Shown: positions 38,942-59,387 of the stretch, piece by piece
How the letters are laid out: the number at the start of each line of letters is the position of its first letter
Position numbering within the stretch: the stretch's first letter is position 1
Notes under the pieces: model-generated
Seen by the model: the letters and a program-made list of their open reading frames with translations, nothing else
The model's database searches: none
Told to the model about the DNA's origin: nothing
Origin: an uncultured bacterium
Lineage (GTDB): Bacteria > Patescibacteriota > Gracilibacteria > Absconditabacterales > Absconditicoccaceae
Assembly (NCBI GenBank): GCA_946408385.1
Contig: CAMJSB010000003.1
Coordinates: 1-64,000, forward strand
Direction: 5' to 3'
DNA: 64,000 nucleotides
Program-made: the position numbers and the translations under genes

Positions 38942-40369
38942 TTAATCTTTAAAACAGCGAACTGAAAATGCCGCTCCACGAGATAAATCATTTTCTGAAT
39001 GTGAAGAATACAATGCCTGGCTATGTGCGAAATTTCAGTTACGGCTTGGAGTAGCAGACCGTAATCATCGATGCTCTCATTGTCACCAAGATCATCAAAA
39101 CTCAAAATCGCGAGAACCTGCATAAGGAACCAAAACTTCATCTTCAAAACTATGATTGTTAGGATCGTCTCAAATTCATCGATAATAGTGGTAAAATGCC
39201 CGAAGCATTCCGTTTAATTCATCATAAGTTGGTACATGATATCATTCTGGACAAGGTCATCTTCTAAAATCAGGTTCTTCATGTATTAATTTTCATTCAT
39301 TTAATACTCATCACCATAAATCATCATTGTGTTCATCATTTAGCCAATAATCTCTAGATGTTTTTATTTCTCTAGTTTGAGGAGTGATAAAAACTGGATT
39401 ATTTAGATGCTTATCTGGTCAATAGATTTCAGGATTTTCTAATCTCTTTGATGATTTTTCTACTTCTCAACTTCGTGGGAAACAATAATCGTTTCACCAT
39501 TGAAAGAGACATCAATATGAATTCTCCCCTGTTCATGCTACTTCTGCTCATAAATTTTTATCCATAAATGTATATGAATAGAATCAATCCGAAACTGTAA
39601 AAGTCCCCTCTTCTAAATTATGAAATATTCAGGATTCTAGCATTACATCTCTTTTTTTCTGTCATAAATCCATTGATAATAAATTAGTTGGCTTTCATGA
39701 CCAAGTCACCATACAGTTAAAATTTTCGTTAAATGGTTCTATTGCTCAATATATTGTATCCAGTGGTCTTCAAATATTATTATCTTCGATGGATTCCTTA
39801 CATTTATCTGTTAGTTCATCGTAGTTTTTTACTTTTCTAATCCAAAAACCTCAGGGGAAAACTGAAAGTTTAAATCAGAATGGCTCAGAATTAAATGGTT
39901 CTGCATCATAATTTCACATATCAATTGAGCAAGATTCATCAAATCATGGCAATTTTCATTGGAGAAATAACCGTTTTCGATTATTCTTTTCACTACTTTG
40001 ACAATACATTGTTAAATCTAATCAGATTGAAATAAGATGGTAATCTTTTCAAAATGCATCTACAAAATCTCAGTTAGGTGTCTTTAGTTCTAATAATCAA
40101 TGCTTTCAATCTAAATCTTCATTAACTTCTATGTTTATATCAGAGTTTGATAATAATTTTTCTGAAAAAATTGAAAAAGTAAGTGGATAATAAATATGTT
40201 CATCCTCAAATATTGTAGTTTCATATTTATAAATATATCAAGAATCTACTTTCTCATAGGTTATGAATTGTTCTCAAGAATCTATTTCTATAGGATTTTC
40301 AGGTGTGGTACATCCTGCAAGTAATAAACTACCGAATAATAAACTTGTTAAAAATCAGATTTTTTTCAT
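38942..40369 (-). CDS. FISUMP-domain lipoprotein A
   Basis: 475 aa. Lipobox L-L-A-G-C at about residue 19. The last 230 residues form a FISUMP domain (Fibrobacter succinogenes major paralogous domain): M-D-K-N-L-G-A, Q-W-G-N, G-P-C-P-E-G-Y-H-V-P-T-Y-D-E-L, V-P-Y-A-G-S-R-D and the ending S-V-R-C-F-K. FISUMP proteins are secreted or outer-surface proteins of unknown role, with a C-type-lectin-like relationship sometimes proposed. The frame across 38980-39120 is confirmed by the V-R-C ending; the overlapping standard-code reading frame is a shadow. It is a tandem paralogue of the next gene. Confidence 0.88.
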
Positions 40370-40381
40370 ATTTATATATCT

Positions 40382-42040
40382 TTAATTTTTAAAACAACGA
40401 ACCGAAAAAACGGCTGAACGATAACTTCTAGAACTCGTGATAGCCGAATTCGTAGATGTTTGTGTAAACCATGATGGACTAGATGATCGATAATATCAGA
40501 CACTTCATCTATCATGAGGAGTTACATCACTATTAAAACGAAGTCATCATGCCCATGGTAATAACAAATCATCTCTTAATTTTCGTCATAAATAAACTCA
40601 ATCGCTTTCTAATTCTTTTGGATATTCAATTGATTTTCGGATAGAAATTAGTTTCTTCCATTCTAGATAACTTGGTATATGAAATCATTCTGGGCATGGT
40701 CATTGTCTTTCTTCTCTTGGATTTCATGTATCTCAAACATAATCCTCTAAACTATATTCATCAAAATAATCACGAGGAGCTCAATATTTTTCCACTTCTT
40801 CTGGCCTTAACTTATCATCTCAACTTCATCACCATAGATTATCGTTATTAATTTCCATATAATCATAATTATGATAATTAACCATCTGATCATATCATGA
40901 TAACCATACATACATAACATCATTTTTATAAGGATTGTTTGGTCAATGTTTTAGAGCTTCTTCTGCTTTTACTTTAACATTTCAAGTCTTTATTCATTCG
41001 CTTGGAGAAAATCCGTAGTTATTTCATCGTTGAAAGTAATATCAAAAAGATTCTTCTCATGTTCAAGTGATAGTTGCTCATAGATTTTTGTCCATTATAG
41101 TTACTGATTCTTCTCAATTGTCTAATGTAATTGTTCATTCTTCAGGATTATGTTGTATTCAGTGTAGTTCTATACTTATCTCTTTAATTTCAGGAAAATT
41201 ATGATTCAAACTGTTTTGGTGGTAGATATGACAAGCTAATTTTGATGCCTCTACGATGAAGCTTTTAGCTTCAGGTAATGATCAGATAAATCTGGATGCT
41301 CATTTACAGTCAGATTCTATTGTTTTATCTTTTGGAATTAAATAAAGAGCTTTTTCAAATCATTCACCAAATACAAAAGGAGAAATAGCATCTTCAGATA
41401 AAGTTTCTTTTCTATTAAGTTCAACAACACAATTATTTTCCCAACTTTTAATAGGCTCCATAACAAAAGGATATGGATTCACCTTATAAAATGCTGATGC
41501 ATTATTTACTGTTGAATATGTAACCGTAGGAAAATATTCTCAATCTTTTTCATATCACTCTTTTACAATATCTCATGAAAACATAGGAAATGAAATTCAA
41601 CTATCTTTTACTCTTTCATAGCATTGAATATATGTTGAAGATGGATTTGATATTGTTACTTCATTATTACGAACAGAAATAGACAATCATCAATTTTTTA
41701 GTAGTAATCTCCTACCGCTATCCTTTAATTCAAATTCACCATTTTGAATTTCAGAATTTGTTGTAAATTTAAAATTAACTGACTGAAAAATATCTTTGAA
41801 ATATACCTTTAACACATAGATATATTGATTATCTTCTTTTCACAGACTAATTATTTCAACAGGAACACTATTTTTATTAATAACATCGGCAACTTCTCAT
41901 GAAAAAATATAAGATTCCTTTGTAATATTAATTTCATTTTCAACATTTTGTGGAATTATTTCATTATTCGAAGGATAACTGCATCAAGTAAGCAATAATC
42001 ATAATGATAGCAAAACTGTCAGAAGTCAGATTTTTCTCAT
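40382..42040 (-). CDS. FISUMP-domain lipoprotein B
   Basis: 552 aa. Lipobox L-L-T-G-C near residue 19. FISUMP motifs in the C-terminal half: M-D-K-N-L-G-A-T, Q-R-G-N-N-Y, G-P-C-P-E-G-F-H-I-P-S-Y-L-E-W, L-P-W-A-G-G-L-R, the Y-Y-R-S-S-S-P strand and S-V-R-C-F-K-N at the end. The N-terminal region (about 25-270) is beta-rich and not similar enough to protein A to name. The two genes are separated by 12 bases and end in near-identical sequence, so they arose by tandem duplication. Likely surface exposed. Confidence 0.88.
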
Positions 42041-42057
42041 AGTTTTATATTAATAAT

Positions 42058-43503
42058 TTATAAAGTCTCTATTTTACCAAATATAGATGGATCACTGACT
42101 CTTATCTTATAATATTTTTCACTATTTTCTTCTGGCTCAAAAAATTGAATCACAGCTTCATATCCTATACTATAATCATCTTCATCATCTGGAAAACAAA
42201 ATAAACTTCCTAATTCATCTTCTCCATTTCTCTTAGTTATATAATAAGAAGTTCCCCTCTGTCATTCAAGACCATCAACTATATTTCAAGTTATTAATTC
42301 ACATCAACGATTAAAATGTCTTTCGGTAATTACTTCTTTTAGAGATTGATTTTTATCTTTGGCATATACTTTTATATATTCTACTCGCATAGGGGCTAGA
42401 GGATCTTTTCAATTTCTTCTAATTTCTACTCAATTCCTAGAAAAAATATTTTCGGGATCTGCTGCAGGAAATTCATATCTCCATCAGATAGGAGTAGATA
42501 TTTTTATTCATAAATCATTAAATGTGTATGTATATCATGTTTCATTATTTACATAACGACCATCCTCTAATTCTCATTGATAAATAAACGAATCTATAAT
42601 CGGTTTTTCTTGGTATCATGAAGATTTGAATTCATAAGGAATATTATTCCTTACTTTAAAATAATCATCCTTTATATTTCATAAAAGAGACACAGAAACT
42701 ACATTTTTTAATTCTTTATAAGATGATCCAGTATTTGTCTGTAAATCTCCAGTATAACTGATTTGTAAGATATCTCATCTTTTTAATCAATTATGGTGAA
42801 GCATAAATCAACCATTATCTTGTTCTTCTGAAAGATTTGTAGGATATGGATAAACAACACTTGTATCATCATAGAAAAAAGGATTATGAACAACTACTTT
42901 TAAATAATTAATATCTCCAGATTCCTGAAATGTTTGTTTTTTATTGTCTTTACTTCTCATGAGCATTAACATTACATATCATCTTAATTCCTGTAAATTT
43001 GGATCATCATTACTAATAACTCACTCTGATTTTAACTTTGCTAAATGTGTTGAATAATATTTATCTACTCAATCTTCTGTATTAAACAACATTCTGGAAA
43101 GAACTGTTCAAAATTCAGCTCTTGTAACATAATCATTAGGTCTAAAATCTGATATTCATTGTCACATTAATCATAACTGACAACTTTCAGTCATATATTG
43201 AACAAGATCAGCAGATACATTAGAATTTAAAAATAAACAAGATTTAGTTGTATCTGGTGTTTTTCATAATATATTTTTAGCATAATTAGTTATCATTTTA
43301 GCCATTTCTGCTCTTGTAATATATCCATTCATATTTGCTTTATCTATAGAATCCATAGTAGTTATCTCATTCTTGTAAGCAAAGTCATAAGCTTTTTGGA
43401 ATTCTTCTGAATAATTGTTTTCAGCATTAACTCCATTAGTAATTCATCAAATCAATAACAATCCTGTAATTGATAGAGTAATAAAAAGTCCAAATTTTTT
43501 CAT
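42058..43503 (-). CDS. Exported protein with N-terminal SLH domain
   Basis: 481 aa. Signal peptide (residues 1-25). An SLH region covers about 28-175: I-T-R-A-E-M-A-K-M-I, F-R-P-N-D-Y-V-T-R-A-E-F-G-T-V-L-S-R and E-L-R-G-Y-V-M-L-M-L-M-R-S-K. This is the same module as at the C-terminus of the 7865-11380 surface protein, including the shared R-G-Y-V-M-x-M-L-M-R-S end. The rest is a beta-rich domain with a late F-F-E-P-E segment like the end of the 5004 lipoprotein (F-F-E-S-P). It likely binds the cell wall or envelope. It is 17 bases upstream of FISUMP B. Confidence 0.87.
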
Positions 43504-47341: not shown

Positions 47342-50300
47342 TTATTTTATAAAACTATTGATATAATTTAAGAATTTTTCGTTATTTTTTACTAAGGAAT
47401 AGTACTTGTCAATCGTATTTACATCTAATATATCAACATCATTTATTCAAACTACAAATCATTCTACATCTCTTTCTAAATCTCATCAGTCTGACCGATG
47501 ATAATATCCGAGTTTTCATCAATTAGCTGGAGATCATTGTGGATTTTCTTTAATATTATTTTTTATCCAATTGATAAAATTTGCTATACGAAATCATTCT
47601 TGTGTATTAGGAAAGCTCATTCAAAGTCAATCAATAGTTACTGATTTTAGATTTTTTGAATCATCCATATTTATAGTAATTTTTTCATCATATCATCGAC
47701 TGGAAAAATTTCATGTAATTTTTCATTCCTTTCATTGTTTTTCATCAGCTTCAAATTTTGGATTTTTTCTCTTTCATTCTCGATCTACTTCATTCATTGT
47801 ATTAATTATATTTTTTACAACAATATCTACATCTCTATGGCTATCAGTTTCAGCTTTTTCCACTGATTTCTTTGAAAATTTTGGCTCTCGAGATGTAACT
47901 TTATCTGAATTACGATATTCTGCGTGTGCCTTGTAAAATCAAAGTCAGCCAATTTCTCTGTTCAATTTATTTTTCACTTCTTGCAAATTTTTATCACTAA
48001 AGTCTGTAATATCTATACTAGTTACATTCCCAATGTCATCAAATTTAAGTACTGCCTGTTCCAGACATAATTCATATATTTTTTTTGCTATTTCTTGTCA
48101 TTTCTTATGATTCTCTTCACTTTCTTTATCTAATATTAATTCTTTAACTGTTTTACCTGTGTTATTATCTTTATATAACTCAAGCAATTCTGGTAAATGT
48201 TTCCTAATTGAGTCATTAACTAAATTATTTATTTTGAGATTTCAATTTTTTACTGTAACTATATTGTCTGTCCATATAAAATTCTCAACTTGTGAAAAAT
48301 GTTCTGAATCGTTGATATCGTTTGAGTTTAAGAATGCATTCATTCATATCACTGTGTTTAATAATCATAGGTATAATCAGTTAAAATATCTGTAATATTC
48401 TTCTGATTTTTCAACTAAATAGTCTTGTGCTGTTCATGGTTGCATATAAAGCAATCATTCTTTTATATTTTGCCATTCTATACTTTTTTTACTAATAGCT
48501 TTTTCAAGTTCTACAGGGATATCTAGATCATCTTCGTGTCCTGGCCAAAGTACAAAATGTCATTGTTTACTTCTAAGCTTATTTAATTTTTTTTCGGCCT
48601 CATCCACATAATTAATTAATTGCTTTTCTTTTGGTGATAATTCCTTACCAGTTTTATTCATTGATTCATATTTTATGTTTACATCATTATCAAAATATAA
48701 AACAGTATTTACCATATCTCCACGGGATAAAGCATAAATTTGACCATTTTCTATTCTAAATAAAAATCTATTAACATCTCCTATTCATGCTCTTTTGGCA
48801 TTCATAGCGAGATAACTAGGAAGCTGTACATAACCTTTTTCATTAGAATTATTTGCTTTTATAAAGTCAATAATTTCCTTTTCGTATTCCTTCTTTTTGT
48901 CTATATATCAATATTCTCTATCGATAATTTTTTGCACTCTTTTTCTAAATTCTTGTGTTAAAGACTCATCGGCACTTTCTATTGGAGAATCTAAGTCAAC
49001 TTCTTTTATAATCATTTTAGTTGCTTGCTCTTTTGTAATTTTACTTATATCTATTTTTTCATCTTTTGCTCAAAAAAACCAAAATCCCGTATCATCATTA
49101 ATCCTAAAACCATCATGCATATATATTCATGTATTATCTCCGTCTCATGTATAAAAACGAGACAATTCAAACATATCATTGGCTCATGTATATCCATGAA
49201 CTTCTCTAGCAATACTGTATAGCACATTCTGAAACGTACAATTAGATACTTGTGTATCTACATTTCAAAGATCATCTTTAAACTCACACGAAAGATACCT
49301 CATACTGCGTTCTTCATCCCAAATCGGCCTTTTATTTATATAATTTAAATCTAATAATACATGTTCTATATAATCATAATCCGTGTTGTATGAAACCTTT
49401 GTATTAGATCTTTGCTCCATTGTTATTGTTAAATTCAAGTATTCATTATATTTTTCTACAAAATCTATATTTTTTTTCAATTTTTTAATTTCATCTGTGG
49501 TATAAGTTTGAGTTTCTTTATCTTCTCAATCATCGTTAATATCTAGTCTACTTTTTATACTAGATTTAGACGCTATTGTTCATTCGCATATTTCTTCTAA
49601 AAGCGTAGGATTTGAGTTTCTCAATTTTTCAAAAATTTCGAATTCTGTTTTGTATTCATTTGATAGTTTTTCTTTATAAGCATTTTTATATCATTCTATA
49701 TCTAATTCTTTGTAATTTGAAATATATGCATTCTCGTGGTCAGTTTTCAAATAACTGTGTACTTTGGAATTTGCTAAAAGTTGTTCTACATACTCCATTC
49801 ATTTTAAAGATAATACAGCTTTTTTCATCTCATTATATTCCGGTGAATTTTTATCTTCCTTTATATATTGTTTAATGTATTCCATTCTTAAATTAATAAT
49901 AGCTTCCATCTCTTTTTTTTCTTCTTCATATTGTTTTTTTTCTTCTTCTGCTAATATTTTTTTGAAAGATTCTTCGTCCTCTCAACTACTATAATATCTT
50001 TCTAACATACTGAAGCTTCATTCCATTATTTCTTCTTGATAGATTAATGCTTCCCATGCATCTTCCATTGTATTAATCTCAGAATTAGGTCCTCTGTCAT
50101 CTTTTATCGATTCCTTCATTCACTCGTTCATCTTTAGACGATCTGATTCAAAAAGATGTACTATAGATTGTTTTATTTTTGTTCTTTTTTGGCTAACAAA
50201 ATCATATCTATTCTGGGAATAAAATTCTTTTTTGTTTGCATATAATTCATCGTATGCTGTGGATACTGCAAATGTAAGAATTCATACAGCTGCTCATATA

Positions 50301-51685
50301 GCCATTCAAATTGGTCAAGTGACACTGCATCAAGCAGCACATGCTATTGCAAGTCATAATGCTTCAGCTCCGATACTTCATAATCAAATTATCAGTTGTG
50401 CACTCGCTTTATCCTTTAAAACTTTTCATCTTATTTCATTTATTTTTGATACTAATTCTGCTTCTTTCTTACTATCAAAATAACTTCGAACATCAACTCA
50501 TGCAAATAAGAATGTAATCGTTCACATTCATTTGATTCATCTTATAAAATTTCTTAATTTTGTTCAATTCTTTAATATTCTTGTCAATCATCTTATTTCA
50601 TTTGCATTTTTTAACACCTTTAGTTGTTTAGCTATATCATCAGATATCGTAATATTTTTTAATTTAAAGAATTCTACAATTTCTTTTTCACTTTTCCCTG
50701 CTATTTTAGCTAGTTCTTCATCTGGTAATGACTCTATCAATTTCAAAGTTTTCATATCTCCCCCAACTGATTTTAATAATTTTGGTGATACTCTATCTTG
50801 TAATTTTTGCCAAGCTTTAAATGCTTCTGCAGTTTCTCAGTCTAAAGATTTAGCAGCTTCATCAAATTGTTTTATCGATTTTTTATACACAGCCTTTTGG
50901 GCTCTATTCATTTTTACTCAACTATTCAATTTCTCAGACATTTGACTACTTAATCTATTTAACATTTTCTTTGTTTCCTGTGCATTGAATTCTTCTGGAG
51001 CTTGTTTTAATGAATTTATTCAAAGTTTTTTTTCTGTTAATGACAAAGTTTTACGATATATTGTCGCGGTTACAACTCATGATGCAGTTCATGAAACAAT
51101 GGGACTTATTCATTCGTTATTTTCCTGATTATTATCATTTTCATTCTGATTAACATTCTCTTGATTTTGATTATCGTTACTTTTATCTTGTGTATTAATT
51201 TCTTGTTTTTGACTACTATTTTCTGTATCTTGACTACTATTCTGATTTTGTATATTGTTCTCTACATTTTGATTGTCATCATTTTGATTGTCATCATTTT
51301 GATTGTTATTTGAACCATCTATGCGTTGCTCTAAAACATCCAATTTTCAATTTACAACCAGATTCAATAATTCATCTAATCTTCATTCAGTCTGTGCCTG
51401 AATAATTTTTTCTTGCTTTTCCTTTAAAAATTTAAATGTCCTATTTACTAAATTTTCAAATAGTTGTTTATTTCAAATTTTTACACCTAATACTTTTCAT
51501 CGAAATCATAGATCCTCTAAATCTTTAAGACTATCTACATCAATTTTCTTATCTGATTTTAGTATGTTTTTCATTTTTGTAAAAATCGGAGCTATCATAA
51601 ATTTATCAAAAAAGCCAAGTTCTTTTTTGAAATCTTGCATATATCTGTCTGCTATATTTTCTTTATATTGTTCTATGGACATCAT
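47342..51685 (-). CDS. Giant protein B (1447 aa), unknown
   Basis: 1447 aa, unrecognised. Residues about 130-195 are a low-complexity Asn/Gln/Asp/Glu region encoded in part by 15-base tandem repeats (51265-51309). A short hydrophobic S-G-V-V-T-A-T-I-Y follows. Near residues 430-485 two strongly hydrophobic Gly/Ala-rich segments form a hairpin (L-G-L-A-I-A-C-A-A-G-C, then M-A-I-G-A-A-V-G-I-L-T-F-A-V). The remaining about 960 residues are acidic and helical or mixed with no signal peptide. Start: ATG-ATG at 51685, 30 bases after the stop of protein C; an upstream in-frame ATG at 51790 would overlap C by 76 bases. Part of the 47342-57730 cluster. Confidence 0.85.
51265..51309. repeat. Three tandem 15-base repeats in the Asn/Gln-rich region
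   Basis: Three copies of a 15-base unit CATTTTGATTGTCAT (the last with one change) encode N-Q-N-D-D repeats on the minus strand. The sequence allows slippage in steps of five residues without frame loss. Confidence 0.85.
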
Positions 51686-51714
51686 AGTAAAAGAATATAT
51701 AATAAAATCTGTTG

Positions 51715-54700
51715 TTATAGTACTTTCGCTAGAATTTTTGTAACAGATTTTAAAAGTTTTATTCACTCTTCTCAAATCTGTTTGGCTCATTTTAACAGCA
51801 CTTTATCAAAATTATCTACCAAATTGTTCACTTCGATTCATTTAAAAAATTTAGAAAAATTTGTTTGTTTTATTACTCATTTAAATTCAGTATAATTTCA
51901 CTCTGACAATAATTTTTTAAGATGATCTCATATTTTTCAAATATTCTGTGCTTCATCCGTAATACTAAATAATTTCTTCAGTTCTGGTATTAATTTTGCA
52001 TCAAATCAGTCATCCATAAATTTAACGAAACTTTTCATTTCATCTTCTGCTAAATCTTCTGCTTGTAATTGTCTTAGTTTATCTATATGTACTTTTGCAA
52101 GATTTTTATTTCCCCATTCATCTAATCTTTTTATAGCTTTATCAATATTTGCATCAAATGCCCTTCTAACATCTCATACTACCTCTGCTGCACCTCATGC
52201 TGATGATAAATTTGATACTCTTTTCAATTCGTTAATAGATTTTTGTGCTTTTACCGCATTAGCAATTTCTGGTTTTATATCCCAGTTCTTCACTAATTCA
52301 TCATATAATTGACTATCTTTTTTGATATCTGATAAGTAATTTTCATTGACTTGTTTTTTTACTATAGAATCAAATGCTACTTTTCTCATATCAAATCATT
52401 TTTTCATATCTTCTGTTACATGAAACATACCTTTCCGCACTGTTTCTGTTTCTTTTGATCAAAATACAGGAAAAGATCTTTTATTTATAATTTTTCATGC
52501 ACGATCCAGTGATACTCTTCAATCTACTAAGTCTTGTAATAAGGTCTCTGCTCATTTTTTTCATCTATATTTTAGTGGGTTTACTCTGTGACCAAAATCT
52601 CTTATTGGCTTCACCTGACTTACTCATTTAAATGTCACCCATGCAGGTGAAAACATCATCTTTCATCCAAATGATGCAATTTTCTTTCAACTCTTAGCAT
52701 CAAGAAGACATCGAACTCATCAAACTAACACAATAGCTCATCATGTTCAAATGAATCAACTACTTATATAAGCAAGTCATTCTCACCAATCACCATGAAT
52801 TAATTTTCAAACTCACTTTATTAAATTTTTAACAGATCAGTATAAAAATCATGGAACTCTATATATTATATTTCCATATTCATCGTAATCCTTTTCTAAA
52901 GTTGTTTGTCACAATTCTGCTTCTTTTTTGAGAGCTAACATTGCATTTATTGATTCTGATAATGCAATTTTATCTTCATTACTTAATTTACCATTTTCTA
53001 GTTCTTGTTTTTTAGATAATAATATTTGTTTATAACTTTCAAACATCTTATCAAGTCATGATTTTACCAAATATTCCCTCATATTTGCATCTCAATTTCT
53101 AATTAAGTCTCAATATATATTCCGAGCTCAATCCTCGACTGCTTCAATTATATCATCCATAGAATTCAGCATATTACCACATGCTTCTCATAGTTTTTTA
53201 TCATCATTTGTATCCAACGACTCAGATTTTTGTTTTTTATTATAAATTATCTCAACTATATCCTTTTCTCATTCTTTACTTCAAAGAATTCTACTTCTAT
53301 CTTTATCTATTTCTTTAATTTGGTCCTTTAAATCTTCATCAATATGATTGTCAAACATATTATTTTGTGCTAAAACAGTAACAGCTGAATGTGTAGGACT
53401 ATTTAGAAAATTTTGGTATTGAGGATCTACTTCGATATATTTTTTAAATAAATCTTTATCATTCCATATTTCATCTTCCGATTTTCAGTATTTTTGTGCA
53501 GCTTCTTTTACTATTTTTTTTGTTAATTGATTTCTCTTTTGTCGTAAGTATGTCTGCACTCTAATACTTTGTCTAAAAAAATATTGCATTTCTTTTTCTG
53601 CATCCTTATTCTTTATTTTCCGTTGCTCTATTTTGTCACCTAATGATCATACCATACCTTTGAATGGCAACCATGATGGTAAAAATTCTAGATAACAATC
53701 TGCAAATAGTTGTAAGAACTCTCATCATGTATTTTTTACAAAATTAATCATTCAATCAAGTCATGCATTTAAAGCTGTTTTAAATGAAGAATTTTGTCAT
53801 AAAATACCTTCAACTGACTTAAATTGATTATCTAGACAATACGGAACTATTCATTTATAAAAATTTGTTCATTTTGATTGTTCTTCAGATATTTTTTTCA
53901 TCTCCAGTTCATCTTCATATCACGATTGAAGTTCCTTGTTATAAATTTCTTGGTAAACATTATCAATCTTATCTCATAATCACTCATAATTATTAAATTT
54001 TTCTTTATTTTCTGGTTTCCTTATAAATTCTTCATAAGATTCACTTTTTTCTTTATCTGAATCTCTTCCTGTCGCACCTTCTTTTCCCCATCGACCAAGC
54101 CGTTTTCATATCTTATTAATAAGGAATCAACCTCATGCGGCAATTCATCACCATTTTAAATATTTTCGAAATGACTTTCCTTTCTTCTTTTTCTTCTTTG
54201 GCTTAGTTTCTTCTTCATCATCTTCCTCTTCTTCGTCTTTTCACCATCAAAATAATTTCTTTATTCATTTATAAGCTAACGCTATTGCTCAGACTCACGT
54301 AGCAGTAAATCACACTGTACGTAGCAAATTCTTTCATTTTTCTGTTTCCCATTTTTCTTTATTCCATATATCAGACCACTGATCTCAGATTCGGTCTTTT
54401 GCCTCTGAAAATACTCATTTATTTTCCGTCTCTGGTAATACTTGCTGTTGAGTTGGAACATTATTTCATGTATTCATTATTGAATCATACAAACTCATTA
54501 TTTCATTAAAACTATTCAACAGAGCTTCTGCTTCTTCTTTTTTATTTTCTACTCACTGTCCTGATTGATTTGATAAATCATTAATTTCTTTCTGTATCTT
54601 TTGTTTCGTAGTCTCTGCTTGAGATTTTAATGCTTCTGCTTTTGTCTTTTTTTCAGTTTCAGAAATATCAACATTGGTTTTTAAGTCATTTAACGATTTT

Positions 54701-54747
54701 TTAATGTCATCAACCTCTGTTTTGAGTTGTTCGATGTTGTTGTTCAT
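51715..54747 (-). CDS. Giant protein C (1010 aa) with coiled coil and shared membrane module
   Basis: 1010 aa. Residues 1-65 are a coiled coil (L-K-T-E-V-D-D-I-K-K-S-L-N-D-L). After a Gln/Pro-rich linker comes the module shared with D and E: K-W-E-T-E-K-G-K-N-L-L, then R-T-V-G-F-T-A-T-G-V-G-A-I-A-L-A-Y-K-G-I and K-K-L-F-G-W-G-K (about 143-170). A second Gly-rich hydrophobic segment (W-G-G-I-A-A-G-G-F-L-I) follows a Glu/Lys tract, and a third lies near residue 700 (G-T-G-A-I-V-L-V-G-G-V). No enzyme motif is seen. It has its own TTGCAT-17-TATAAT promoter and is transcribed with B. Confidence 0.87.
54236..54321. repeat. Block nearly identical to 56445-56530 (copy in gene C)
   Basis: 86 bases with about four mismatches to 56445-56530, encoding the A-T-G-V-G-A-I-A-L-A-Y-K-G-I membrane segment. 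Flanking sequences diverge quickly, which points to gene conversion or recent exchange limited to this module. Confidence 0.8.
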
Positions 54748-54781
54748 AATAGATTTTTTAAAAAATAAATTATCTATACCA

Positions 54782-54810
54782 ATTATACACATATATTAAA
54801 GAAAATGCAA
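54782..54810 (-). promoter_or_regulatory. Promoter of the C-B unit
   Basis: On the minus strand TTGCAT (54805-54810), 17 bases, TATAAT (54782-54787), 35 bases before the ATG at 54747. Same boxes, same spacing and nearly the same distance as the promoter at 57774. Confidence 0.7.
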
Positions 54811-54832
54811 AAAATTATGTACTTTTTTTATA

Positions 54833-54858
54833 AAAATAGCTCTATGAAGAGCTATTTT
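54833..54858. terminator. Terminator between D and C
   Basis: AAAATAGCTC/GAGCTATTTT 10-bp perfect stem with a 6-base loop; T-rich on both outer sides. It lies just after the stop of D (54869) and before the C promoter, splitting the cluster into two transcripts. Confidence 0.85.
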
Positions 54859-54868
54859 ATTTTTTATC

Positions 54869-57004
54869 TTATGAATTGTTTTGTCAATTTGTCCAATAAT
54901 TTTGCGATGCTATAGTCCTCATTCAATTCAAAAATTTTATAAATGATGATCCATCTTCTTTATTATTCAGCTGATCTTCGAAATAGCTTTGAGAATTTTC
55001 TTTATTTTTTGCCAAATCTTTTAACAATGTGGGACAATCTTTCTGTAAACTTTCATTTTTTATTACACGCTCTCATTTACCACTTAAGTTTCATTCTCAA
55101 TTTGTGTCAACCCAAAAGCCACTATCATATGCTGAATTTACAGAAGGCACAAATGGGATTATTGGTGTTGGCATACTATTTCATTGGACATAAGGCATTA
55201 AGTTGAAAAAGAAAGGATATTTTTCTCATCAGTATCACCCATATTTTTTTCTAAACATGTTTGATAGATTAACCACTCTCAAACATTCTTTTAATCCCTC
55301 TTTTGTGTGAGGAAAGTCTAATTTCAACTCTCATCAAATATCATTTTCAGAATATTTTTCTATCGTTATAGATTTTATGCTGGATGGATCTACTTGTCAA
55401 TTACCCAACATAGTAATATTTCATAATATTGTTATGTATGTATGTTGACCATATGAAGAGATTTTATATCTATTTGGATTGTGTGGATCTTGTTCTGCTT
55501 TTAGATTCCTTATCTTACCTTCCGGTATTTCTGTTATATTTGTATTATCTAATTCTTCTGCAACATTTTTTATATATTCTTGTATTGGAGATTTATTTTC
55601 AGAATCTATTCTTTGTTTTCATGGCAACCATATAGATTCTCATCATTCTTCAATACCGTTCAAGTATGCAATAAATTTATTAAAGTTATCACCATCTTTT
55701 ATCGTTGAACAGCACCTACCTAAAGAGGAATTATCGTCTAATGCTTGTCATCAAAAATATCATGCTGCACTAAGTCATAGAGTTGCTCATATTCATACAG
55801 CTCCACTTTTTGTAGCAACTCATGAAGTGATTCACAATACAGCTCATGTTATAGCTAATGTATTTTGCCAAAAATCAGAGTTACTTCCAGATAATACCTC
55901 ATTTGCCCCATCCACGGAAAAAGAAAATGAGATATCTCATCCAGTTGATGTTTCTGCAAAAGCTGCTTTTCCTGATCAACATCATCTTAAATTATATTTT
56001 AAACAATTTACGATGTTTGCAGCATGCACAAGCTCCACATTAGTTTTGAATTTTACTGATTCGAGTCAAACAATACATTTTTCATTTTCATTAATTCCTG
56101 TAGATTCTCCGTATGACAATATAGTTTGCTGTTCTTCATCATACTCAATTCAATTATCAAAATTTTGTCTGTACATATTTTCATCTATGTTTCAATTGTT
56201 TACATCTCATGCTGCAAGAAGTACAGCTTCTTTGATTGTTAATGGGTTCTCTCATTCTACATTCCAATCTAAAAAATCTTTGATATTCCATTTACGTGTT
56301 TTTAATCAGTGAGCTATATAATATATTCATGTTCATATACCTGATCGCTTTAAAGCCTTTCCATACCACCTATCCCAAAATGGTTTCTTTTTCTCCTTTT
56401 TTGATTTTTTTTCTTCTTTATCTTCATCATTTTCTTGTTCTTCATCTTTTCACCATCAAAACAATTTCTTTATTCATTTATAAGCCAATGCTATTGCTCA
56501 GACTCACGTAGCAGTAAATCATACTGTACGAAGGACATTTTTTCAAGTTTCATCTTTCCATTTATTTTTATCTCGTATATCTCATCGCTGACTTCAAATC
56601 CGTTCTCAAGCCTTACTAAACATATTTTTATCATCTGATGGTTGTTCTGGTACATTTTGTGATTGTACTGGAGCATTTGATGACTTTCATGCTATATTAT
56701 CATACAAATTTTTGATTTCTATATTTGTTGTATCCAAAAAATTCTGAGCATTTTTAGCTTCTTGCTTAGCTTTTGATGTCGATTTGCTTGATTTATTTAT
56801 CTTATCAATCTCGTCTTGAAGTTGTTTTTCTTTAGTTGTTGCATCTTGGATAAGAGTCTTTGCTTCAGTCTCCTTATCTTCTTGTGTTTTATTAGTATTT
56901 GTATTTAATGCATCTAATTGTGTTTTAATATCTTTATAATCATTTTGTAATTGATTTAGATGTTTCTGTTGTTCTTCCTGAGTTTTTTTCATTTGTTGTG
57001 TCAT
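54869..57004 (-). CDS. Protein D (711 aa) with coiled coil and shared membrane module
   Basis: 711 aa. Residues 1-105 are a Gln/Lys/Glu-rich coiled coil. The shared module begins K-A-G-E-R-I-G-S-Q-R-G-D-I-R-D-K and runs through K-W-K-D-E-T-G-K-N-V-L-R-T-V-G-F to K-K-L-F-G-W-G-K (about 135-185). After a Lys/Glu tract and a globular region there is a second hydrophobic Gly/Ala-rich stretch (about 385-420: A-V-L-G-I-T-S-G-V-A, then G-I-G-A-T-L-G-L-S-A-A-G-Y-F-G-G). The remaining C-terminal 290 residues are unrecognised. A 277-codon ORF on the plus strand inside this region is an antisense shadow. It starts 27 bases after E ends. Confidence 0.86.
56445..56530. repeat. Block nearly identical to 54236-54321 (copy in gene D)
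   Basis: Second copy of the 86-base module; see the entry at 54236. The corresponding part of gene E (about 57155-57240) is clearly related in protein but not near-identical in DNA. Confidence 0.8.
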
Positions 57005-57031
57005 TTTATTTGTTGTTTAGATAAAAAAATT

Positions 57032-57730
57032 TTACTTACTTTTTTTCTCTGCATCTGATAGATGTTTAAAAAGTCGACCTGCTGCATTTTCTAGAAGAGA
57101 ATCTTTTTCTTCTTTCTCTTCATCTTTTCAATCTGACTCTTTACTTGATTTTCATCATCAAAATAAACTTTTTATTCATCTATACACAAATCATAATACT
57201 CATATTCATGTAGCAGCAAATCATAATGTACGAGCTATATTATTTCAAGTTTCATCTTTCCATTTTGTCTTATCTCGAACATCATTTCGTTGATTTCAGA
57301 TTCGTGATCAAGCATCACTAAATTTAGTTCATATCCACTTTCAAGCCTTTGTGAAAAAATTATCATCACTTGATGTTTGTGTCGGCGTCTGTGTTGGAGA
57401 AGAATGCGGTGTTTGTATTGACATTGATGGTGTTTTTACAATATTATCATGTAGATCTTGAACTTCCTGGGTTATTGTTTTCAAAAAATTCTCTGCCTGT
57501 TTGGCTGCTTCAATTTCTTGTTGATCAGCGTTTTGTTTTTTCTTTATTTTATCAATTTCCGTCTTTAATTCTTTTTCCTTTGTTTGAGCACTCTGAATAA
57601 GTTGATTTGCTTCTTTTTCCTTTTCTTTCTGATCTTTATTAGTATCCGACTTTAATGAATCTAATTTCTTTTTGATATCTTCGTATTCTGTCTTTAGTTT
57701 TTTTAGTTCTGGTGTCTCTGGATTTACCAT
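57032..57730 (-). CDS. Protein E (232 aa) with coiled coil and shared membrane module
   Basis: 232 aa. Coiled coil (residues 5-110: K-L-K-T-E-Y-E-D-I-K-K-K-L-D-S-L), Thr/Pro/Ser linker, then K-W-K-D-E-T-G-N-N-I-A-R-T-L-G-F-A-A-T-G and Y-R-G-I-K-S-L-F-G-G-G-K (about 155-190), a Lys/Glu/Asp tract and a short end. It is the minimal member of the family, ending where C and D carry large extra domains. Start: M-V-N-P at 57730; the longer standard-code start at 57763 would lie between the promoter and the chosen start. First gene of the E-D transcript. Confidence 0.85.
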
Positions 57731-58046: not shown

Positions 58047-59387
58047 ATGAACGAAGAAAGAAAAAAGATCTATGAAAACCTCATGGAGGATATTTCTGAA
58101 TTAAGTGAAGATTTGCAAGATTTACTCTTAAAATGAGCTGAAAAATGAAGCCTTTTGGAAGAAGACTTGATTGCATCACTCGATAATATGGAAGGATCAA
58201 TCAGAATTTTGGAAAAATTCTATGATCTGTGTGATAAACTCAAAATTAAGGTAATCACTATTGAGGAGGAGTTAGAGAATAGAGAAAAAGAAGATAAATC
58301 AAGCAAAAAAGAATCTAGACTTGGAAAAGTTTCTCTCTATGGAAAGACTGATTTGCCTCCTGATATGCAGTATAAGGACTACATTAAATTGTATTTCAAC
58401 GATATTTCAAAAATTCCTCTTTTGACTGCAGAAGAAGAAAAAGAAGTAGCAAGAAGAGTAAAGAAATGAGATGAAGCAGCTAAACAAAAATTAGTTGAAT
58501 CAAACTTGAGGTTAGTAATTGCTATTGCTAAACGTTATTTTGGAGGAAGACTAGGATTTGCCGACTTAATTCAGGAATGAAATATCTGACTTATTAAAGC
58601 TATTGAAAAATTCGATCCTGATAAAGAATTTAAATTCTCGACTTATGCGACTTGGTGGATTAAACAATCTATCACTAAAGCTATTGCTGATATGTGAAAG
58701 AATGTTAGAATCCCTGTGCATCTAATTGATGAGATAAATTCATATAACAAGACTTATTCATTGTTATTCCAAAAGCTTTGAAGAGAGCCAACAAGTAAAG
58801 AAATCTGACAAAAATTATGATATCCTATCAAAAAAGTTAAAAAGCTTGAAGAAGTGATTTTTGGTAATGTATCACTTGATAGAGAGGTTTGAGATGAAGG
58901 TAGAGATACATTGGCTGACTTAATTGAAGATGGAAATACTTTACGTCCAGATCAATTAGCTGAGAGGGACACTCTTAGAGCTAATTTGGATCAGATTTTA
59001 TGAATGCTTGATGATAGAGAATCAAAAATCGTAAAAATGAGATATGGAATCGATGGACCTAAATATACTCTTGAACAGGTTTGAGAAGAATTTGAAGTAA
59101 CTAGAGAAAGAGTAAGACAAATTGAACAAAAAGTTATCCAAAAATTAAAAGAGCATCAAGGATTACAGAAAATGCTTGGAATTGAGGATGATATTGAGAA
59201 AATGGAAGATGAGAATATCAAAAAGAAGAGAGCTAAGAAAGCTCAAAAAGCTCCTGCAAAGAAGAAGATTGAAGATGATGACGATGAATTCGATTTCGAT
59301 GGATGGGATGATGACGATGATGATTCAGAAGATCACTTCCCTACTGATGCAGAAGATGATGATTTTGATATAGATGCTGCTGAATAA
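58047..59387 (+). CDS. rpoD: Primary sigma factor RpoD with acidic C-terminal tail
   Basis: 446 aa. Regions 1.2 ([12 protein letters not shown]), 2 ([27 protein letters not shown]), 3 and 4.2 ([19 protein letters not shown]) of housekeeping sigma-70 are intact. This fits the consensus -35/-10 promoters seen in the window. Unusual: after region 4, where sigma-70 normally ends within 10-20 residues, about 70 residues follow, first Lys/Ala-rich ([11 protein letters not shown]) and then almost purely acidic ([12 protein letters not shown]). A short acidic helical N-terminal region stands in for region 1.1. Confidence 0.96.

Follow-up and report, generated by a model that had tools for sequence, protein, structure and literature searches.

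A cluster of four genes with shared domains

Four intact genes form a tight cluster on the minus strand of the window, the 64,000-nucleotide stretch of DNA that was analysed. Translated with table 25, they run in the order E, D, C, B from position 57730 to 47342 and are separated by gaps of 27 nt (E–D), 121 nt (D–C) and 32 nt (C–B). Their coordinates, strand, frames and lengths agree with a preliminary description of this DNA. One flank carries a divergent gene for an rpoD-like sigma factor (58047–59387), and the other carries genes for a 127-aa membrane protein, a flippase and a UvrC-like protein. Three neighbouring genes at 38942–43503 encode secreted or lipoprotein-like products, with one SLH match and one weak Fib_succ_major match among them. 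The bacterium is probably epibiotic, judging by described members of this group (PMC8080830, PMC13059738) and not by the window's own genome.

Table 1. Genes and domains of the cluster: feature, position in the window, strand, description.
Gene E	57032..57730	(-)	232 aa; coil + hairpin module at N-terminus, little besides
Gene D	54869..57004	(-)	711 aa; module, then two copies of a DB domain of 150-200 aa
N-terminal module of D (coil + hairpin)	56285..56965	(-)	HMM, identity comparison
First DB domain of D	55625..56251 (approximate bounds)	(-)	hhalign
Second DB domain of D	54890..55597 (approximate bounds)	(-)	hhalign
Gene C	51715..54747	(-)	1010 aa; module and large helical region, corresponding to the giant's N-terminal half
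N-terminal module of C	54043..54747	(-)	coil residues 3-92 confidently helical; hairpin low confidence
Gene B	47342..51682	(-)	1446 aa plus stop; N2 adaptor, Q/N linker, giant C-terminal half, DB domain
N2 adaptor domain of B	51323..51682	(-)	shared with the N-termini of NlpC/P60 and VanY enzymes in relatives
Hydrophobic Gly/Ala-rich helical hairpin of B	50243..50401	(-)	conserved in giants
Most conserved giant region	48263..49669	(-)	core motif GYxGx...LKxFFxE...GIYxDGxxWxxN; class-wide
DB domain, B C-terminus	47345..47920	(-)	homologous to both repeats of D

The proteins had been described as free of named domains. This held: searches of B–E against Pfam, NCBIfam, PHROGs, PADLOC and PDB sequences gave nothing above coiled-coil noise. 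AlphaFold modelled B (residues 247–1446) with fair confidence (pLDDT 76, pTM 0.72) as a mostly helical protein with small alpha/beta parts towards the C-terminus. The model of C is weak (pLDDT 60) and poor outside the coil and a central helical region. Foldseek found no PDB or BFVD match for either model at E<=0.001. An origin from a phage, plasmid or virus was considered and rejected, as searches of phages, plasmids and viral contigs matched no relatives of the cluster proteins. No published work on these proteins was found in a literature search.

E, D and C are alignable over approximately 210 residues at the N-terminus. Within this module a linker connects a helical coil to a hydrophobic Gly/Ala segment, a charged linker comes next, and C and D continue with a second segment that is weaker. 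Alignment and HMM comparison place the similarity of the three copies far above chance. An HMM built from them retrieved 23 proteins in the loci compared, and 27 on iteration. A fourth copy in the genome of the window (G000:C4:15064-15636, contig 4) lies directly after sufS and an S-layer-type gene. Module genes often stand directly after sufS, which encodes a cysteine desulfurase (L006:3630-8552, L040, L041, L045, L047, L050, L053, L054), and in several such loci sufS itself comes after a gene for an S-layer-type secreted protein. Between D and C the hairpin parts of the module are 76% identical and the coils 29%. The four products had been called membrane proteins. Hydropathy over 19 residues makes this firm for B only, whose hairpin reaches 1.95 and 1.89; C has one such segment (1.71), and the hydrophobic segment of the module is weak (1.33–1.43) and its second segment weaker (0.18–0.61).

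Beyond the module the proteins had been said to diverge into unrecognised domains. No named domain was found there, but B and D have a C-terminal domain in common: the last 190 residues of B match both repeats of D (hhalign 98% and 96%). This DB domain occurs in further proteins of the family too. Two DB proteins encoded away from giants (L121:8616-12994, L134:4130-7191) have a conserved partner gene of 196–197 aa in front.

A giant protein, split or fused, and its exchange

C and B are, by sequence comparison, the two halves of one giant protein. Eleven genomes of the order (seven before a wider search) encode a single-gene giant of 1611–1909 aa that carries the module. In blastp alignments the N-terminal half of this giant matches C and the C-terminal half matches B from residue approximately 205 on; hhalign gives a probability of 100 for both pairings. 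Window C and B together have the features of the giant family, namely the N-terminal module, the hydrophobic hairpin and the conserved C-terminal core. The two genes are separate, as in the window, in about ten other genomes. The order in which B follows C thus recurs, but the full E–D–C–B set does not recur in relatives. The preliminary description had taken B for a separate protein behind C, whereas C and B together correspond to a single giant elsewhere. Of the two outcomes that this description named as refuting it, a known family for B–E and relatives that lack the module and gene order, neither was found. In a tree of the C-terminal region, the split and fused forms fall on opposite sides of one branch with moderate support (71/90), so that a single split or fusion suffices.

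The giant profile matches 26 of the 49 genomes of the order, all of one family; the relatives are genome assemblies, many of them fragmented, with simply called open reading frames. Several near-complete or single-contig genomes of the order gave no giant match. Elsewhere in the class, scattered standard-code genomes encode relatives of up to 2204 aa, most with the core motif of B and some with the hairpin module. Across 380 genomes sampled over the phylum, the C-terminal profile found matches in class members only. Patchy in the order and confined to the class, the giants form an old, class-specific, accessory family.

Exchange is evident at two levels in the sequences. Within one genome the modules of paralogues have been homogenised: copies from one genome are more alike than copies of the same type from different genomes, in the hairpin (60% versus 39%) and in the coil (43% versus 26%). 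Coil and hairpin also move independently of each other: in G029, the coils of D and C are 26% identical and the hairpins 100%. Entire C/B versions have been exchanged between genera. The B of the window is closest to that of another genus (48% identity, tree support 100/99), and genus g1 occupies four places in the gene tree. Monophyly of g1, a group named after the tree had been seen, is rejected (p-AU 2.7e-5). The same rpoD-to-uvrC site holds differing split versions in the genome of the window (G000) and in G006, and a fused version in G003.

Wall enzymes linked to the giants of relatives

Among relatives in the order, 11 of 13 loci have a wall-enzyme gene as the next gene after the giant or B, in an operon-like arrangement with 16–41 nt between them; the downstream genes of the other two loci are unassigned. 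These enzymes belong to four unrelated Pfam families: NlpC/P60 at six loci (G019, G020, G025, G027, G028, G061), M23 at two (G059, G065), VanY at two (G021, G070) and L,D-transpeptidase at one (G002). The binomial probability of this linkage at the base rate of the order is approximately 2.5e-24, or 8e-9 with the count reduced to 4 of 6 independent cases. No wall enzyme lies next to the window's own B or at L048, the other readable split locus of g1, and no wall-enzyme neighbour was found in the standard-code relatives of the class. The role of the window locus must therefore be read mainly from its relatives. Elsewhere, the genome of the window encodes one NlpC/P60 protein and has two M23 and three VanY matches. 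The sole NlpC/P60 protein (L137:6156-6920, contig 1 of G000) has 254 aa and no signal peptide, and is conserved across the genus, even in G007, where no giant was found.

A hydrophobic N-terminal segment is present in none of the 14 linked genes as against 32 of 39 unlinked M23 and VanY genes, the absence of signal peptides being judged by hydropathy alone. The unlinked NlpC/P60 proteins examined are likewise without a signal peptide, so that its absence is not specific and forms only part of the argument. Short tails of a hydrophobic residue or residues plus Ala (MAA, LAA, MVA) end ten of the 14 linked genes (L040, L046, L049, L050, L054, L088, L092, L093, L094, L096), none of the 39 unlinked wall enzymes and 11 of 753 other proteins, a pattern picked after the data had been seen. 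Such a tail could serve as a signal for export or, as a degron of ClpXP type, for degradation.

Some enzymes have N2, the adaptor of B itself, as their own N-terminal domain. An HMM built from N2 of B alone matches NlpC/P60 and VanY enzymes at E-values of 1e-8 to 4e-5, and N2 matches also adjoin M23, VanY and NlpC matches away from giants. Enzymes of genera g13 and g19 have a common N-terminal domain of approximately 140 residues, which is followed by NlpC/P60 or by M23, depending on the genome. This adaptor is 55–66% identical between enzyme types whose catalytic halves are unrelated; compared with N2 it reaches only 24% in hhalign. Most simply, the adaptors would dock the enzymes to a partner or route that the giant uses too. 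Swapping of domains at a fixed slot is a clear sign that enzyme and giant cooperate. A conserved Cys...GHR...DPY domain (c8) is encoded after D or the giant at L039, L049, L052 and L053, and is fused to NlpC/P60 in L053. It may be an additional wall or peptide hydrolase. The N2 HMM built from B alone detected no N2 in downstream proteins of the c8 type (G005, G012, G035).

Possible roles and comparison with known systems

That a giant is usually followed by a wall enzyme in relatives suggests a so far undescribed machine working on or through the cell wall. The preliminary description had offered an envelope structure, a secreted toxin set or a cell-contact apparatus. The linked wall enzymes of relatives and the swapping of cassettes speak indirectly for a role of this kind, but all of its steps are ones that we infer. 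Our preferred reading, held tentatively, is an accessory and exchangeable system of a giant core and wall enzymes, probably serving host contact. The core would be a giant, mostly helical protein, by hydropathy without a signal peptide, which in the window is split into C and B, with D and E as satellites carrying the N-terminal module of C. The N-terminal modules (coil plus hairpin, and N2) may act as docking or loading signals, and the hydrophobic hairpin of B is predicted to insert into the membrane. The giant would carry or position the wall enzymes, so that peptidoglycan could be reached without the Sec route. Most likely the target would be the host that carries the bacteria, at its wall or at the site of contact. 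In the window species, the wall enzyme would have to act from another locus or would go unused.

A more ambitious version, which we hold to be possible and more doubtful, is a previously undescribed, class-specific apparatus for envelope penetration in epibiotic Gracilibacteria/Absconditabacteria. The giant, whole or split, would be a carrier to which wall enzymes attach, whatever their fold, through a common adaptor, and cassettes exchanged between lineages would possibly set which hosts can be attacked. For the way in which minimal epibionts open up or tap into a host, published genomes have so far yielded adhesins, pili and a type IV system as the main candidates. The giant family and its linked wall enzymes, which fall into at least four unrelated kinds and in some cases are joined through an adaptor also present in the giant, provide concrete proteins and pairings to test.

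The giant might instead be a scaffold for the bacterium's own wall, active in synthesis or cleavage at division or at a pole, with linked enzymes that act on its own peptidoglycan. Linkage to wall enzymes fits with this role, as does the occurrence of the core family throughout the class and beside housekeeping genes. We regard it as unlikely, since approximately half of the genomes in the order, including single-contig ones, gave no giant, giants are swapped between genera, and four unrelated enzyme families in one slot would be odd for a housekeeping function. E, D, C, B and the wall enzymes could also be separate cargo, polymorphic effectors of a contact-dependent secretion system (e.g. type IV) with N- or C-terminal export signals. 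A conserved N-terminal module on unlike C-terminal parts, homogenisation within genomes and the Ala tails of ten of the 14 linked genes, a post hoc pattern, would all suit such effectors. This too is rather improbable: no toxin domain or immunity gene was found in the window proteins or the linked genes scanned, no secretion genes lie near the cluster, and the giants are conserved along their whole length, whereas toxin tips vary. Surface fibres or adhesins, the role suggested for the giants of Vampirococcus and Strigamonas, are quite improbable; giant size is known in the group (PMC8080830, PMC13059738), and S-layer-type genes and a flippase are close by, but B–E have no adhesion domain and, by hydropathy, no signal peptide or N-terminal anchor, unlike the published giants. 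A relic of a phage's tail or injection apparatus (tape measure with tail lysin) is already disfavoured and very improbable: a giant helical protein with a hydrophobic hairpin followed by NlpC/P60 or M23 recalls one, and weak profile and fold matches to tape measures exist, but the best BFVD fold match is not significant (E 0.12, TM 0.09), PHROGs gives no more than coiled-coil-level matches, for E, no phage, plasmid or viral-contig relatives were found, no other tail genes are present, the neighbours being rpoD, flippase, uvrC and sufS, and the family is common to the whole class.

The accessory giant-and-enzyme system favoured here can be set beside several known ones. Polymorphic toxins, such as LXG proteins, share N-terminal export domains. 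As in these toxins, one N-terminal helical module stands on different C-terminal parts and is recombined between paralogues; the operon partner of B–E in relatives is instead a wall enzyme, and Pfam and NCBIfam gave no LXG or WXG match for the N-terminal domain. A tape measure and tail lysin resemble the system in that a giant helical protein has membrane-active segments and exchangeable wall hydrolases come after it. The system differs in being cellular and class-wide, with no homology of sequence or fold and no tail genes. The giants of Absconditicoccaceae described from Vampirococcus lugosii (PMC8080830) and Strigamonas (PMC13059738) contain known domains of adhesion or inhibitor type and in many cases a signal peptide. 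They probably come from the same bacterial group and resemble B–E in extreme length, hydrophobic segments and a suspected role in host contact; judged by the published descriptions, B–E are set apart by having neither these domains nor signal peptides. A type IV secretion system has been reported in Patescibacteria (PMC12102498). In monoderm type IV secretion, as would be the case here, a wall hydrolase is paired with a cell-contact system. The giant system differs in that no type IV genes were seen near the cluster and that some giant-linked hydrolases carry an adaptor in common with B.
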